Shown piece after piece: positions 6,218 to 15,905 of a stretch of DNA of 50,344 bases (positions are counted from its first letter, which is position 1; each line of letters opens with the position of its first letter). The stretch is from Candidatus Omnitrophota bacterium (GTDB lineage Bacteria; Omnitrophota; Gorgyraeia; Duberdicusellales; Duberdicusellaceae): NCBI GenBank assembly GCA_021163425.1, contig JAGGWS010000018.1, forward strand, positions 1 to 50,344. Reading direction: 5' to 3'. The position numbers and the translations under genes were made by a program. The notes beneath the pieces were generated by a model, which worked only from the letters and a program-made list of their open reading frames with translations, had not been told where the DNA came from and did no database searches.

Positions 6218-6490
6218 ATGACTAAAAAGGATATTGTTCTTAAAATTTCTGAGGAGACCGGTTTTAAGCAGATAGTAGTTAAGAAAGTAGTCCACAAGGT
6301 CTTTGAAGTAATGCTTTCTGCCCTCTATAAAGGAGAGAAGATAGAGATAAGGAATTTTGGAGTGTTTAAGGTAAAGAGAAGAAAACCTCGAGTAGGCAGA
6401 AACCCTAAGACTAACCAGCCTGTTCCTGTTCCCGAGAGGAAGACCGTTGTTTTTAAACCCGGTCTGGAGATGAAGCAAAAGATAAGGTAA
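6218..6490 (+). CDS. HU/IHF family DNA-binding protein (start set at ATG 6218)
   Basis: MTKKDIVLKISEETGF...EIRNFGVFKVKRRKPRVGRNPKTNQPVPVPERKTVVFKPG. Confidence 0.93.
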   Translation: MTKKDIVLKISEETGFKQIVVKKVVHKVFEVMLSALYKGEKIEIRNFGVFKVKRRKPRVGRNPKTNQPVPVPERKTVVFKPGLEMKQKIR

Positions 6491-9708: not shown

Positions 9709-10629
9709 ATGCAGGAATTTGTGAAAATAGAAGACCCTACTCTCTTAGCTTCTTTAGTTGGTCCTTACGACAGAAACTTGAAAATTTTAGAGAAGGAATT
9801 AGGAGTAGAAATTTTTCTGGAAAAAGAAGGATTTTCTTTGAGGGGGAGCTCTAAGTCAGTAAAGAAGGCTAAGACTCTTTTAGAGGGTTTGTTAAGCTCA
9901 AAAGCCCCTTTTACTCCTGAGGCTGTATCTTCATATTTTAGAGGAGGTAATTTTAGAGATAAGGAAGAAGCTATAGAAGTTCCTTCCTCAAAAAGATTTA
10001 TATATCCTAAAACCAGGACTCAAAAAGAATATGTTCGGGCTATTAGGAACTATGAGCTGGTCTTTTCTATTGGACCTGCAGGTACAGGTAAGACTTATTT
10101 AGCCTGCGCTTTAGCTGTAAATTATTTGTTTAAGGGTAAGGTAGGAAGAATTATCTTAACCCGGCCAGCGATTGAAGCAGGGGAGTCTCTGGGTTTCTTA
10201 CCCGGGGATATGTATGAAAAGTTAGGTCCTTATTTACGGCCTCTTTATGATGCTTTATATGATATGATGGACGCTCAAACTATAGAAGACCATTTAGAGA
10301 CAGGAGTAATTGAAGTTGCCCCTTTAGCTTATATGCGGGGTAGAACCTTAAACAATGCTTTTATAATATTAGATGAGGCTCAGAATTGTACACTGGAACA
10401 ACTCAAGATGTTTTTAACTCGCTTAGGTTTTGATTCTAAGACAGTGATTACCGGAGATATAACTCAGTCGGATTTACCCGGCGGCAAGCCTTCAGGGTTA
10501 TTAACCAGTATTAAGCTTTTAGAGAAGATAGAGCAGATAAAGTTTATTTACTTAACCGATAAAGATGTGGTAAGGTGTGAACTGGTCCAGAGGATAATAA
10601 AGGCTTATGAAAAAATTAGGAAAGAATAA
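9709..10629 (+). CDS. phoH: PhoH family ATPase
   Basis: SIGPAGTGKTYLACALAV, RPAIEAGESLGFLPGDMYEKLGPYLRPLYDAL, AFIILDEAQNCT. Confidence 0.95.
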   Translation: MQEFVKIEDPTLLASLVGPYDRNLKILEKELGVEIFLEKEGFSLRGSSKSVKKAKTLLEGLLSSKAPFTPEAVSSYFRGGNFRDKEEAIEVPSSKRFIYPKTRTQKEYVRAIRNYELVFSIGPAGTGKTYLACALAVNYLFKGKVGRIILTRPAIEAGESLGFLPGDMYEKLGPYLRPLYDALYDMMDAQTIEDHLETGVIEVAPLAYMRGRTLNNAFIILDEAQNCTLEQLKMFLTRLGFDSKTVITGDITQSDLPGGKPSGLLTSIKLLEKIEQIKFIYLTDKDVVRCELVQRIIKAYEKIRKE

Positions 10630-11983
10630 GGTTATAGAAATATTAGGGATTGGGGTCTTCATCGTAGTAATGACAATTTTACTTTATCAAATAAGTGTAA
10701 ATATAAGTATTCTGGTAATTGCCTTCTTTTTTCTTTATTATCTGAAAATTTTAAGAAAGAAGAGAGAGTCTACTTTCCTTTCTTTAACCTTTCTTTTCGT
10801 TTTAGCTTTAACTGTTTTCTTCTGGCAGAAAGAGTTTGATTTCAGTCCTTATCTTTCAGGGCTGATAACTCTGGTTCTTTTGGTAAATATTCTTTTTAAT
10901 GATATAGAGTTTTCGTTTGCTTATTTATTCTTTATAAATATTCTCAACACCCTTGTTTTTAATTCCGATTTTAAATTATTTTTAATCTATTTAGTTAGTG
11001 GAGCTACAGCAATATTTTTAAGCAGGAATGTAAGAAAAAGATTTGATGTAATAAAGGCAGGATTTTTAGCAGGGATAATGGAATTTTTAATGATAATTTC
11101 AGTCAGTTCTCTTTTTAAATACCCAGAATTAGTAGAGTCTTTTAAATCAAGCTTAATTAACGGGATAGTTTCCTCGGTAATAGTATTGGGGATACTCCCT
11201 ATATTTGAATATTTATTAGGAGTAGTTACCAATATTTCTCTTCTGGAACTTTCAGATTTTAATCATCCTCTTTTACGAAGATTAATTTTAGAAGCTCCAG
11301 GAACATATCAGCATTCTTTGATAGTAGCTAACCTTGCTGAATCAGCAGCTGAAGCTATTGGCGCTAATTCTATCTTGACCCGGGTAGGTGCTTACTATCA
11401 TGATATAGGTAAGATTTTTAAGGCTGAATATTTTTCTGAAAACCAGATGTTAGCTCAATATAGAGATAAACATAAGAATCTGAGCCCAGCTATGAGCAAA
11501 CTTATAATAATGAAGCATGTAAAAGAAGGTGTAGAACTGGCAAAAAAATATCATCTGAATAAAAAGATAATAGATTTTATAGCCCAGCATCACGGAACAA
11601 CCCTGGTCTATTATTTCTTTAAGAGAGCTCAACAAACCCCTCTTCAAACTGTTTCTTCTGAAGAAAGTTACCGTTATCCTGGTCCTAAGCCTAAATCTAA
11701 AGAAGTTGCTTTAGTGCATTTAGCTGATACAGTGGAAGCTACCTCACGAACTTTAGAAGACCCTAATCCTTCTCAAATTAAGGAGATGGTTAGAACAGCT
11801 ATTTTAGATAAGTTCTTGGATGGCCAACTTGATGAAACTGACCTTACTTTGAAAGATTTAGAGAAGATAGGAGAAGTATTTACCAGGATTCTTAACGCTA
11901 TGTTCCACACCCGTATAAATTATTCCAAGTCTTCAGATGAAGATAGTTCTAAAAAATCTTCAAAAAATACTCAAAATAAATAG
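10607..11983 (+). CDS. Multi-pass membrane HD phosphohydrolase (7TM-7TMR-HD / PgpH-like)
   Basis: N-terminal TM helices; PGTYQHSLIVANLAESAAEAIG, GAYYHDIGKI, IAQHHGTTLVYYFF. Confidence 0.88.
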   Translation: MKKLGKNKVIEILGIGVFIVVMTILLYQISVNISILVIAFFFLYYLKILRKKRESTFLSLTFLFVLALTVFFWQKEFDFSPYLSGLITLVLLVNILFNDIEFSFAYLFFINILNTLVFNSDFKLFLIYLVSGATAIFLSRNVRKRFDVIKAGFLAGIMEFLMIISVSSLFKYPELVESFKSSLINGIVSSVIVLGILPIFEYLLGVVTNISLLELSDFNHPLLRRLILEAPGTYQHSLIVANLAESAAEAIGANSILTRVGAYYHDIGKIFKAEYFSENQMLAQYRDKHKNLSPAMSKLIIMKHVKEGVELAKKYHLNKKIIDFIAQHHGTTLVYYFFKRAQQTPLQTVSSEESYRYPGPKPKSKEVALVHLADTVEATSRTLEDPNPSQIKEMVRTAILDKFLDGQLDETDLTLKDLEKIGEVFTRILNAMFHTRINYSKSSDEDSSKKSSKNTQNK

Positions 11984-12452
11984 CTCTTCCTTCAGGAAAT
12001 TAATTGAAAAAATCTGCAAATTTCTTAATTTAAAGAATTCTTGTATTTCTTTTGTTTTTGTTGATAACCGCTTTATTAGAAACTTAAATAAAAAATATCT
12101 GGGCAAAGATTCTCCTACAGATGTTCTAGCTTTTGATTTAAAAGATAGATTTACCCTGCTCCATCAAAAAGTCACAGGTGTAAACCCGCAAAGAAGGGAG
12201 AAAAATATCTCCAACTTAAATTTCTCAGGAGAGATATTTATTTCTGTGGAGGAGGCTAAAAGGAATTCTAAAATTTTCTCTACGGATATTCACGAGGAGC
12301 TTCTTCTCTATGTGACTCACGGTTTATTACATTTAATAGGTTTTAAAGATAAAACTGCTTCTCAAAGGATGAGAATGAGAAAAAAAGAGAGAGAAATTCT
12401 CTCTTATATCTTTAAAGAAGAGGAAAAAATTATTTCCACGCTCTTGCGTTAA
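11937..12452 (+). CDS. ybeY: Endoribonuclease YbeY-like protein, modified metal motif
   Basis: FVDNRFIRNLNKKYLGKDSPTDVLAFDL ... GEIFISVEEAKRN ... VTHGLLHLIGFKDK; sits after phoH and the HD gene. Confidence 0.87.
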   Translation: MKIVLKNLQKILKINSSSFRKLIEKICKFLNLKNSCISFVFVDNRFIRNLNKKYLGKDSPTDVLAFDLKDRFTLLHQKVTGVNPQRREKNISNLNFSGEIFISVEEAKRNSKIFSTDIHEELLLYVTHGLLHLIGFKDKTASQRMRMRKKEREILSYIFKEEEKIISTLLR

Positions 12453-12502: not shown

Positions 12503-12531
12503 TTGACATATTTTTTAAAATTTGCTAAATT
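12503..12531 (+). promoter_or_regulatory. Strong putative sigma70 promoter: TTGACA - 17 nt - (TGC)TAAATT
   Basis: -35 at 12503-12508, extended -10 at 12526-12531. Confidence 0.7.
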
Positions 12532-12564
12532 AAAATCAGAAGGTTTTAAAAAAAGGAGGTGAGA

Positions 12565-12633
12565 ATGGCTAAGAAGAAAGCAGCAAAGAAGAAAACAACG
12601 AAAAAGAAAACAGCAAAGAAAAAGAAAAAGTAG
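12565..12633 (+). CDS. 22-aa lysine-rich micro-protein MAKKKAAKKKTTKKKTAKKKKK (histone H1 / AlgP tail-like)
   Basis: SD AAAAGGAGGTGAGA, consensus promoter upstream, terminator downstream; 14 of 22 residues Lys; missed by ORF track because of size. Confidence 0.7.
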   Translation: MAKKKAAKKKTTKKKTAKKKKK

Positions 12634-12706
12634 ATTTGCTTTAAATTAGAGTCTTGAAGTTGTTGGCAACTTAAGATAGGAGTTTAAAACAGCTAAAGAA
12701 TCGTGG

Positions 12707-12745
12707 AAGCCTGCTCTTTAAAAAGAGCAGGCTTTCCTTATTTTA
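12707..12745 (+). terminator. Rho-independent terminator of the micro-gene transcript
   Basis: Arms AAGCCTGCTCTTT / AAAGAGCAGGCTT (12707-12734), then TTCCTTATTTT. Confidence 0.8.
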
Positions 12746-13109: not shown

Positions 13110-15905
13110 ATGAACAAAGAAATTATTATTAAAGGAGCAAGAGAACATAATCTTAAGAATATAGATTTAGTTCTTCCCAAGAATAAGTTTATTGTAATTA
13201 CCGGACTTTCTGGCTCAGGAAAATCTTCTTTAGCTTTCGATACTATTTATGCTGAAGGTCAACGCCGGTACGTAGAGAGTCTTTCCAGCTATGCCCGGCA
13301 ATTTTTAGAAAAATTAGAAAAACCTCAAGTTGAGTATATTGAAGGTTTATCTCCAGCTATAGCTATTGAGCAAAGGTCTTCTTCAGGTTCTTTGCGTTCT
13401 ATTGTAGCTACTCAAACTGAGATTTATGATTATCTGCGCCTTTTATTTGCTAGAATTGGGAAGCCTTATTGTTTTAAGTGTAAGATTCCTATTTCTGCTC
13501 AAAGTCCTCAAGAAATTATAAATAAAGTTTTAGAATACCGGGGTCATAAAATTTATATTTTAGCTCCTCTAATTAAAGGCAAAAAAGGTAAATTTAGAGA
13601 GTTATTCCAGCGTTTAAGAAAAGATGGATTTGTAAGGGTAAGGATAGATGGGAAGATTTATAATTTAGAAGAAGATATAGATTTAGCCCGCTATAAAATC
13701 CATAATATAGAATTGGTGGTAGATAGATTGATTCTCAAACCTGAGGAGAAAGAGAGAATTTCTTCTTCAGTAGAATTAGCCTTAAAAGTAGGCAAGGGAG
13801 AAATGATTGTATTTAGAGAGGATACTGATAGTGAAGATTTTTTTAGTAGTAAACTTCTTTGTCCTAAGTGTAAGCAAAGTTTTCCTGAACTTGAACCTCG
13901 GAGTTTTTCTTTTAATTCTCCTTATGGTGCCTGTCCAGCTTGTAATGGTTTAGGCAGAAGACTGGAATTTGACGTAGACTTGATTGTTCCTGATAAGAGA
14001 AAGAGCTTAAGAGAAGGAGCAATCGAGGTCTGGAGAAGAGGCGGGAGAGGCTATATTCTTTATTATCGCAGTCTTTTAAGAGAATTAGCTGAGGAGTTAG
14101 GTTTTAGTTTAGATGCCCCTTTTTATAAACTTCCTGAAAGAATTCAAAAAATTATCCTTTATGGTTCAGATATAGAAATATGGGGTAAGCCTTTTGAGGG
14201 AGTTATCCCTCATTTAGAAAGAATATTTGAAACTACTGATAGCGACTATTTAAAAGTTGAGATTTCTAAATTTATGAGCAGAAAACCCTGTGTTGAATGT
14301 GGAGGCTTAAGGCTGAGGAAAGAGAGCTTATCAGTCTATGTAAAAGACAAGAATATTGGAGACATCTTAAGGATGTCTATAGGAGAGGCTGGAGAGTTTT
14401 TTGATGATTTAAAGCTTACTTCTCAGGAAGAGGCGATAGCCCATATTCTAATAAAGGAGATAAGGAAGAGATTAAAATTTTGTAAAGAAGTAGGTTTAGA
14501 TTACCTTACTTTAGATAGGTTAAGTTCTACTCTTTCAGGAGGAGAAGCTCAAAGGATAAGGCTAGCCACTCAGTTAGGTTCAGCTCTTTCGGGGGTTATA
14601 TATATACTGGATGAACCTACAATAGGCTTGCATCCTCGGGATATTCAGAGATTGATAGATATCTTTAAAAAATTGAGAGATTTAGATAATAGCGTTATTG
14701 TAATAGAACATGACGAGAGGGTAATAAGAAATTCCGACTGGATAGTAGACTTAGGTCCAGGGGCAGGCAAAGAAGGAGGTTTTGTGGTTTATAATGGTCC
14801 TACCAATCAAATAATTAAAGCTGATTCTCTTACCGCTTCCTATCTTAGAGAGGAAAGGACAATCCCTCTTCCTTTTAAAAGGAGAGATTATAGAAATTCT
14901 CCCTTTATTCTTATAAAGGGAGCCCGCCAATATAACCTTAAAAATATAAATGTGAAAATACCTTTAAGCACTTTTGTCTGTGTAACCGGTGTTTCTGGTT
15001 CAGGAAAGTCTACTTTAATAGAAGAAATTCTCTATAAGGGGATGGCTAATTATCTTTATGGTTCTAAACAACCTGCAGGAGCTTATGATGATATTAAAAA
15101 TAAAGAACTGATAGATAAAGTAATAGTAGTAGACCAGGCTCCTATTGGCAGGACTCCCCGGTCTAATCCTGCCACTTATACCGGGGTCTTTACCTATATA
15201 AGAGAGTTTTTCAGTCAGCTCCCCGAGGCCCGGGTCAGAGGTTTTAAGCCGGGAAGGTTTAGTTTTAATGTGAAAGGAGGCAGGTGTGAAGCCTGTCAGG
15301 GTGATGGTCTTAAAAAAATAGATATGCATTTTTTGCCTTCCGTCTATGTAAAGTGTGAGGTTTGTCAGGGTAAGAGATTCAATGAGCAGACTTTAGAAGT
15401 TAAATTTAAAGGCTACTCCATAGCCGATGTACTGGAGATGTCTGTAGATGAGGCTATAAGGCTTTTTGAGAATATCCCTCAAATCAGAAATATCCTTAAG
15501 ACTCTTCAGGATGTAGGTTTAGGGTATATAGAACTGGGGCAATCGGCTACCACTCTTTCGGGAGGAGAAGCTCAAAGGATAAAACTCTCCAGATACTTAA
15601 GAAAAAAATCTACAGGTCGCACTCTTTATCTTCTTGATGAGCCTACCACCGGACTTCATTTTGAGGATGTGAGAAGACTTTTAGAGGTTCTTCAGAGGAT
15701 AGTGGATAAAGGAAATACTGTCATAGTAATTGAGCATAATTTAGAAGTTATAAAATGCGCAGATTATATAATTGATTTAGGCCCTGAAGGAGGAGAAGAA
15801 GGAGGCTATTTAGTAGCTTGTGGTTCTCCTGAAGAGGTAGCTAAAGTTAAAACTTCTTATACCGGACGTTTCTTAAGAGAAAAATTAAGAGAAAAAGTTT
15901 TCTAA
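13110..15905 (+). CDS. uvrA: Excinuclease ABC subunit A
   Basis: Two ABC ATPase domains ([33 protein letters not shown]), [17 protein letters not shown], zinc motifs CPKCKQSF / CEACQGDG. Confidence 0.97.

Follow-up and report, generated by a model that had tools for sequence, protein, structure and literature searches.

The locus between ybeY and uvrA

The window, the whole 50,344-nt stretch of DNA analysed here, contains at 12503-12736 a complete small transcription unit, read directly from the letters as a promoter, a Shine-Dalgarno sequence, a 22-codon ORF and a terminator with a 14-bp stem. The names of the neighbouring genes are putative, being our own readings of their sequences. The features of the locus are as follows.

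11937-12452, + strand: ybeY-like endoribonuclease gene, the upstream neighbor, recognized from sequence and from a position behind the phoH-like and HD genes, and shared with genome G002
12503-12531, + strand: sigma-70-type promoter, TTGACA-17-TAAATT with an extended -10, identified by sequence, a promoter scan and conservation across 17 aligned units
12503-12508, within the promoter: -35 element TTGACA, followed by a 17-nt spacer
12523-12531, within the promoter: extended -10 element, TGCTAAATT
12532-12551, + strand: short 5' UTR
12552-12563, + strand: Shine-Dalgarno sequence, AAAGGAGGTGAG, with GGAGGTG invariant in the 17 aligned units
12565-12633, + strand: micro-ORF of 22 codons encoding MAKKKAAKKKTTKKKTAKKKKK, with ATG at 12565 and a TAG stop ending at 12633
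12651-12676, + strand: small stem-loop in the interval between stop codon and terminator, identified by folding (z -2.8)
12705-12736, + strand: rho-independent terminator with a 14-pair stem and a T-rich tail, identified by folding and a sequence scan
13110-15905, + strand: uvrA, the downstream neighbor, at the same place in G002 and one gene further away in G003

The promoter, Shine-Dalgarno sequence, micro-ORF, terminator and stem-loop proposed in a first-pass annotation of this DNA are all present, and direct reading and folding confirmed their coordinates. The terminator stem has a folding energy of -23.1 kcal/mol (z -5.8) that was equalled by none of 200 shuffles, and the stem-loop described at 12657-12672 extends to 12651-12676 (-8.6 kcal/mol). 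Taken alone, the promoter is within chance for AT-rich DNA, with 4 promoter-like sites observed in the AT-rich stretch of the window against 4.8 expected; it is the conservation of the same layout across the 17 aligned units that places the unit above chance. The micro-gene occurs as a single copy in its genome. The window also carries an HU-family gene at 6218-6484, and there are two HU genes in the genome.

The encoded peptide consists almost entirely of lysine, alanine and threonine, with lysine at 14 of its 22 residues (64%). Profile searches matched it to no Pfam or NCBIfam family, and an Rfam search of the window returned one tRNA elsewhere and no structured-RNA match at the unit. We found no earlier description of stand-alone peptides of this kind in the part of the literature covered.

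Conservation, synteny and coding constraint

A DNA search of 58 relatives returned matches that span the promoter and run into the ORF, and of the 42 genomes in this uncultured order of the phylum Omnitrophota at least 27 have a full or nearly full unit, a lower bound because several units lie at contig ends and a contig of the same-genus genome G001 breaks exactly at the unit. The apparent absence from G001 was for that reason dropped as evidence of loss. The unit is missing from the rsfS site, where it would be expected, in three g15 genomes and in G007, indicating that it is not indispensable. Across the 17 aligned units TTGA, a spaced TG-TA-A-T -10 element, GGAGGTG, the ATG and a common layout are invariant or nearly so, and the units of the order conserve the promoter, the Shine-Dalgarno sequence, a Met-Ala start and a poly-Lys end. 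The peptides of relatives follow the form M-A-(KKK with A, T or V pairs)n with several lysines at the end, and range from 10 to 66 aa, changing in length by whole codons. Outside the order the sequence-only model R1 was unspecific, many of its weak matches falling on other genes whose promoters are strong. In some units the first ORF is followed by another short lysine-rich ORF (L174, at 10018-10068, and three others), for example MKCGAKRKTSKSKSTKKKKK in g9.

The surroundings of the unit are conserved within families. In the window and in G002, representing the window's family, the gene order is phoH, HD-domain gene, ybeY, micro-gene and uvrA, and in G003 the micro-gene is one gene away from uvrA, so that the position upstream of uvrA given in the first-pass annotation holds in this family. 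The sister family has the order trpB, trpA, M16 peptidase gene, rsfS and micro-gene, followed by ribE or another gene. The micro-gene is at another site in g9, and G105, which belongs to a different family (f7), likewise has a micro-gene, of 19 aa, ahead of uvrA. Far from standing in isolation, the unit is a conserved syntenic gene.

Several features of the codons bear on whether the ORF is translated. Relatives retain both the reading frame and the K/A/T composition, and of the 34 nucleotide differences counted between relatives in five pairwise comparisons, 28 fall at third codon positions (binomial p 6e-9; this and other exact probabilities are too small because of shared descent and repeat ancestry, from which part of the codon signal may stem, although the direction is clear). 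Most amino-acid replacements exchange K and R or are among A, T, V and S. The slippery motif A_AAA_AAG was seen 14 times against 49 expected from within-gene synonymous shuffles, with none of 1000 shuffles as low, and A-runs of at least 7 numbered 10 in the micro-ORFs against 43 in the shuffles; in the window ORF the longest A-run is 5, compared with a shuffle mean of 8.6. In ordinary genes of the same loci the ratios of seen to expected were 1.15 for A_AAA_AAG and 1.03 for A-runs, and in lysine-rich segments of ordinary genes 0.87 and 0.88, respectively. The avoidance of A-runs of at least 9 was discarded as coding evidence, being shared by ordinary genes and hence unspecific. The concentration of changes at third positions, together with an avoidance of the slippery motif far beyond that of ordinary genes, indicates that the micro-ORF is translated and under selection. 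A chance ORF is ruled out by the 17-unit alignment, the codon-position bias, the slippery-motif avoidance and a reversed-pattern control (see below), and we conclude that the unit is a genuine protein-coding gene that has been inherited vertically.

The first-pass annotation had read the locus as a dedicated unit whose product is a polycationic peptide that stands alone and is similar to H1 and AlgP tails, with a transcript possibly doubling as a functional RNA. Only the former part is upheld, relatives having kept the frame and the K/A/T composition, as the check proposed in that annotation required. A regulatory RNA with an incidental ORF, or a dual-function transcript, could account for the 12651-12676 stem-loop and for the small hairpin found in the longer 5' UTR of many relatives. 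The interval from stop codon to terminator, however, varies from about 15 to 85 nt and in sequence among relatives, where the 12657-12672 stem was not seen. The window leader lacks the 5' hairpin, and the hairpins that lie just before the Shine-Dalgarno sequence in many sister-family units differ in sequence, with no consensus structure returned by RNAalifold on a simple alignment. With the Rfam result and the strong coding constraint, this makes a function of the transcript as RNA very unlikely.

With a terminator behind a short lysine-rich ORF and a further structure between the two, the ORF could also be read as the lysine-sensing leader peptide of an attenuator that controls the gene downstream. 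This was rejected as most improbable: the genes 3' of the unit differ between families (uvrA, ribE, a GGDEF-type gene, a ROK-family gene) and include no lysine gene among those seen, the ORFs of relatives reach 66 aa, no competing structure is conserved, and the order of synonymous codons is under selection.

Proposed function of the micro-protein

The reading that we consider probable is that the micro-gene encodes an abundant, disordered, charge-driven polycation that binds nucleic acid in the manner of a head-less H1 tail. The micro-protein would be intrinsically disordered and act through its charge rather than through a fold, binding the phosphate backbone of nucleic acid with no sequence specificity and, once bound, compacting or screening it as does the C-terminal tail of histone H1, minus the head domain. 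A counter-ion or compaction agent would agree with the strong expression signals, the variable length and the lack of a fixed motif; variation by whole codons is likewise what one would expect of a peptide that depends on charge rather than fold. High expression of the unit seems likely, and the product is probably abundant, positively charged and adherent to DNA or RNA. The polycation idea of the first-pass annotation is plausible, and DNA may be condensed by such a peptide. HU genes were found in 21 of 21 genomes tested, among them the micro-gene's own, which suggests that the micro-protein is not the main nucleoid protein and rules it out as a replacement for HU.

Binding to nucleic acid in general is suggested by the likeness to known tails, and the analogy with H1-like tails would make DNA the likelier main target over RNA or the ribosome. 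Main action on RNA or the ribosome, as a tiny basic ribosome-associated protein of the size of bTHX or as a counter-ion of rRNA or mRNA, is a less likely but serious alternative. It is kept alive by the ribosome-maturation genes that adjoin the unit, ybeY in the window's family and rsfS in the sister family, and the promoter of the unit resembles that of an apparent ribosomal-protein gene of the same genome. Nevertheless, with its own promoter and terminator the unit is such that its neighbors prove little, the site in g9 is a different one, and peptides of 10-66 aa that share no fixed motif are unlike a protein filling a ribosomal pocket. bTHX, a short basic ribosomal protein of Thermus, is alike in size class and basic charge but has a defined sequence, which sets it apart from a low-complexity micro-protein of variable length. 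Finally, poly-Lys would bind any polyanion, a point against the preferred reading. The micro-protein might buffer a different polyanion (polyphosphate granules, for example) or position such granules on the nucleoid, given that polyphosphate granules are bound by AlgP, whose tail is similar (PMC9239181); the tail of AlgP is, however, carried on a helical N-terminal domain and the micro-protein has no such head, and we regard this role as unlikely.

Related lysine-tail proteins and comparison with known systems

Two further kinds of lysine-tailed protein occur in the phylum of the micro-gene. The first has one or two GYLYFIDKxGDVSxAKMARGG repeats followed by a lysine tail that is 5 to about 50 residues long (42-109 aa in total) and, in other families of the class, is often encoded directly upstream of uvrA, the repeat motif being matched at 29 of 70 uvrA loci. 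This GYLYFIDK-tail protein is present in 243 of 384 Omnitrophota genomes, belongs to no Pfam or NCBIfam family and is, as far as we found, undescribed. Its head is predicted to form beta strands (six for two repeats, pLDDT 88), and a structure search with the prediction returned no significant PDB match. It occurs in only 3 of the 42 genomes of the window's order, compared with 13 of 16 genomes from other families of the class, a contrast that may reflect a single evolutionary event. We propose, as a hypothesis only, that the head-less form replaced the headed form in the window's order. Families f39 and f7 have both the GYLYFIDK-tail protein and the tail-only gene, so strict mutual exclusion of the two was rejected.

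The second kind, of 23-27 aa, joins a cysteine head to a lysine tail (for example MSCCSTKKCTKKASKKAPAKKVAKKK) and was observed in family f39 and a few others; a scan for the pattern found it in 11 of 384 genomes of the phylum, eight of them in f39 and sharing a common motif. It is possibly a metal-binding polycation. We tentatively suggest, as a possibility that falls short of probable, that Omnitrophota possess a lysine-tail system in three forms (tail alone, GYLYFIDK head plus tail, and Cys head, MxCCxxKKC..., plus tail), of which the micro-gene would be a head-less derivative dominant in its order at an ancestral uvrA-linked site.

When GTDB species genomes were scanned for short ORFs of the form M-A...KKKK, at least 119 loci were obtained. 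At least 75 of the loci listed encode an in-frame peptide of 14-25 aa made almost only of K, A, T, V, P, S, R and G, at least 53 of these with a Shine-Dalgarno-like stretch, and the sources among the matches listed include Verrucomicrobia, Bacteroidota, Alphaproteobacteria, Nitrospira, Planctomycetes, Eisenbacteria and Nanoarchaeota; the low complexity of these peptides means that likeness does not show common ancestry. Within the phylum the pattern was found in 22 of 384 genomes, and the reversed-pattern control in 2 among the genomes listed. If the proposal is true, the 14-25 aa peptides of many bacterial and archaeal phyla would make head-less H1-like tails a class of prokaryotic chromatin or RNA peptides that is general and has been overlooked. 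A nearly pure Lys/Ala/Thr peptide of 10-66 aa, mostly shorter than the length limit of common gene callers, can be its own conserved, syntenic and selected gene, and, if DNA or RNA is bound, would represent bacterial H1-tail chemistry without any folded domain. The 22-mer is defined and simple to synthesise, making it a test case for charge alone as a chromatin protein.

Among known systems, Hc2 of Chlamydia and BpH1 of Bordetella (PF07382, NF038053) are alike in having Lys/Ala/Thr/Val blocks of about five residues and in changing length by whole repeats with the frame kept, Hc2 and BpH1 each varying in their number of lysine-rich pentamers (PMC2848022). The micro-gene family shares such pentameric repeats of variable copy number, as KKK(A/T/V)(A/T/V) units in the 10-66 aa relatives. 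Hc2 and BpH1 are, however, 165-237 and 182-206 aa long, respectively, against 22 aa for the window peptide, which matched neither PF07382 (HC2) nor the histone H1-like NF038053. Weak similarity below the cut-offs was confined to the longest relative, of 66 aa (15.5 bits, E 0.02, against a cut-off of 40 for PF07382; 15 bits against 80 for NF038053). By composition the micro-protein is accordingly classed as an H1-type tail that, by the tests made, falls outside the Hc2 and H1-like families. The KPAA-repeat tails of AlgP and PhaF in Pseudomonas are similar as disordered Lys/Ala tails thought to bind DNA and polyanions (PMC9239181). They form the C-terminus of larger proteins with a helical N-terminal domain, whereas the micro-protein is tail only and lacks proline, its lysine blocks beginning straight from the ATG at 12565, with the conserved promoter and Shine-Dalgarno sequence directly 5' of this ATG. 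The GYLYFIDK-repeat protein shares phylum, class, lysine tail and frequent position just 5' of uvrA with the micro-protein, and differs in carrying one or two beta repeats before the tail and in being nearly absent from the window's order.
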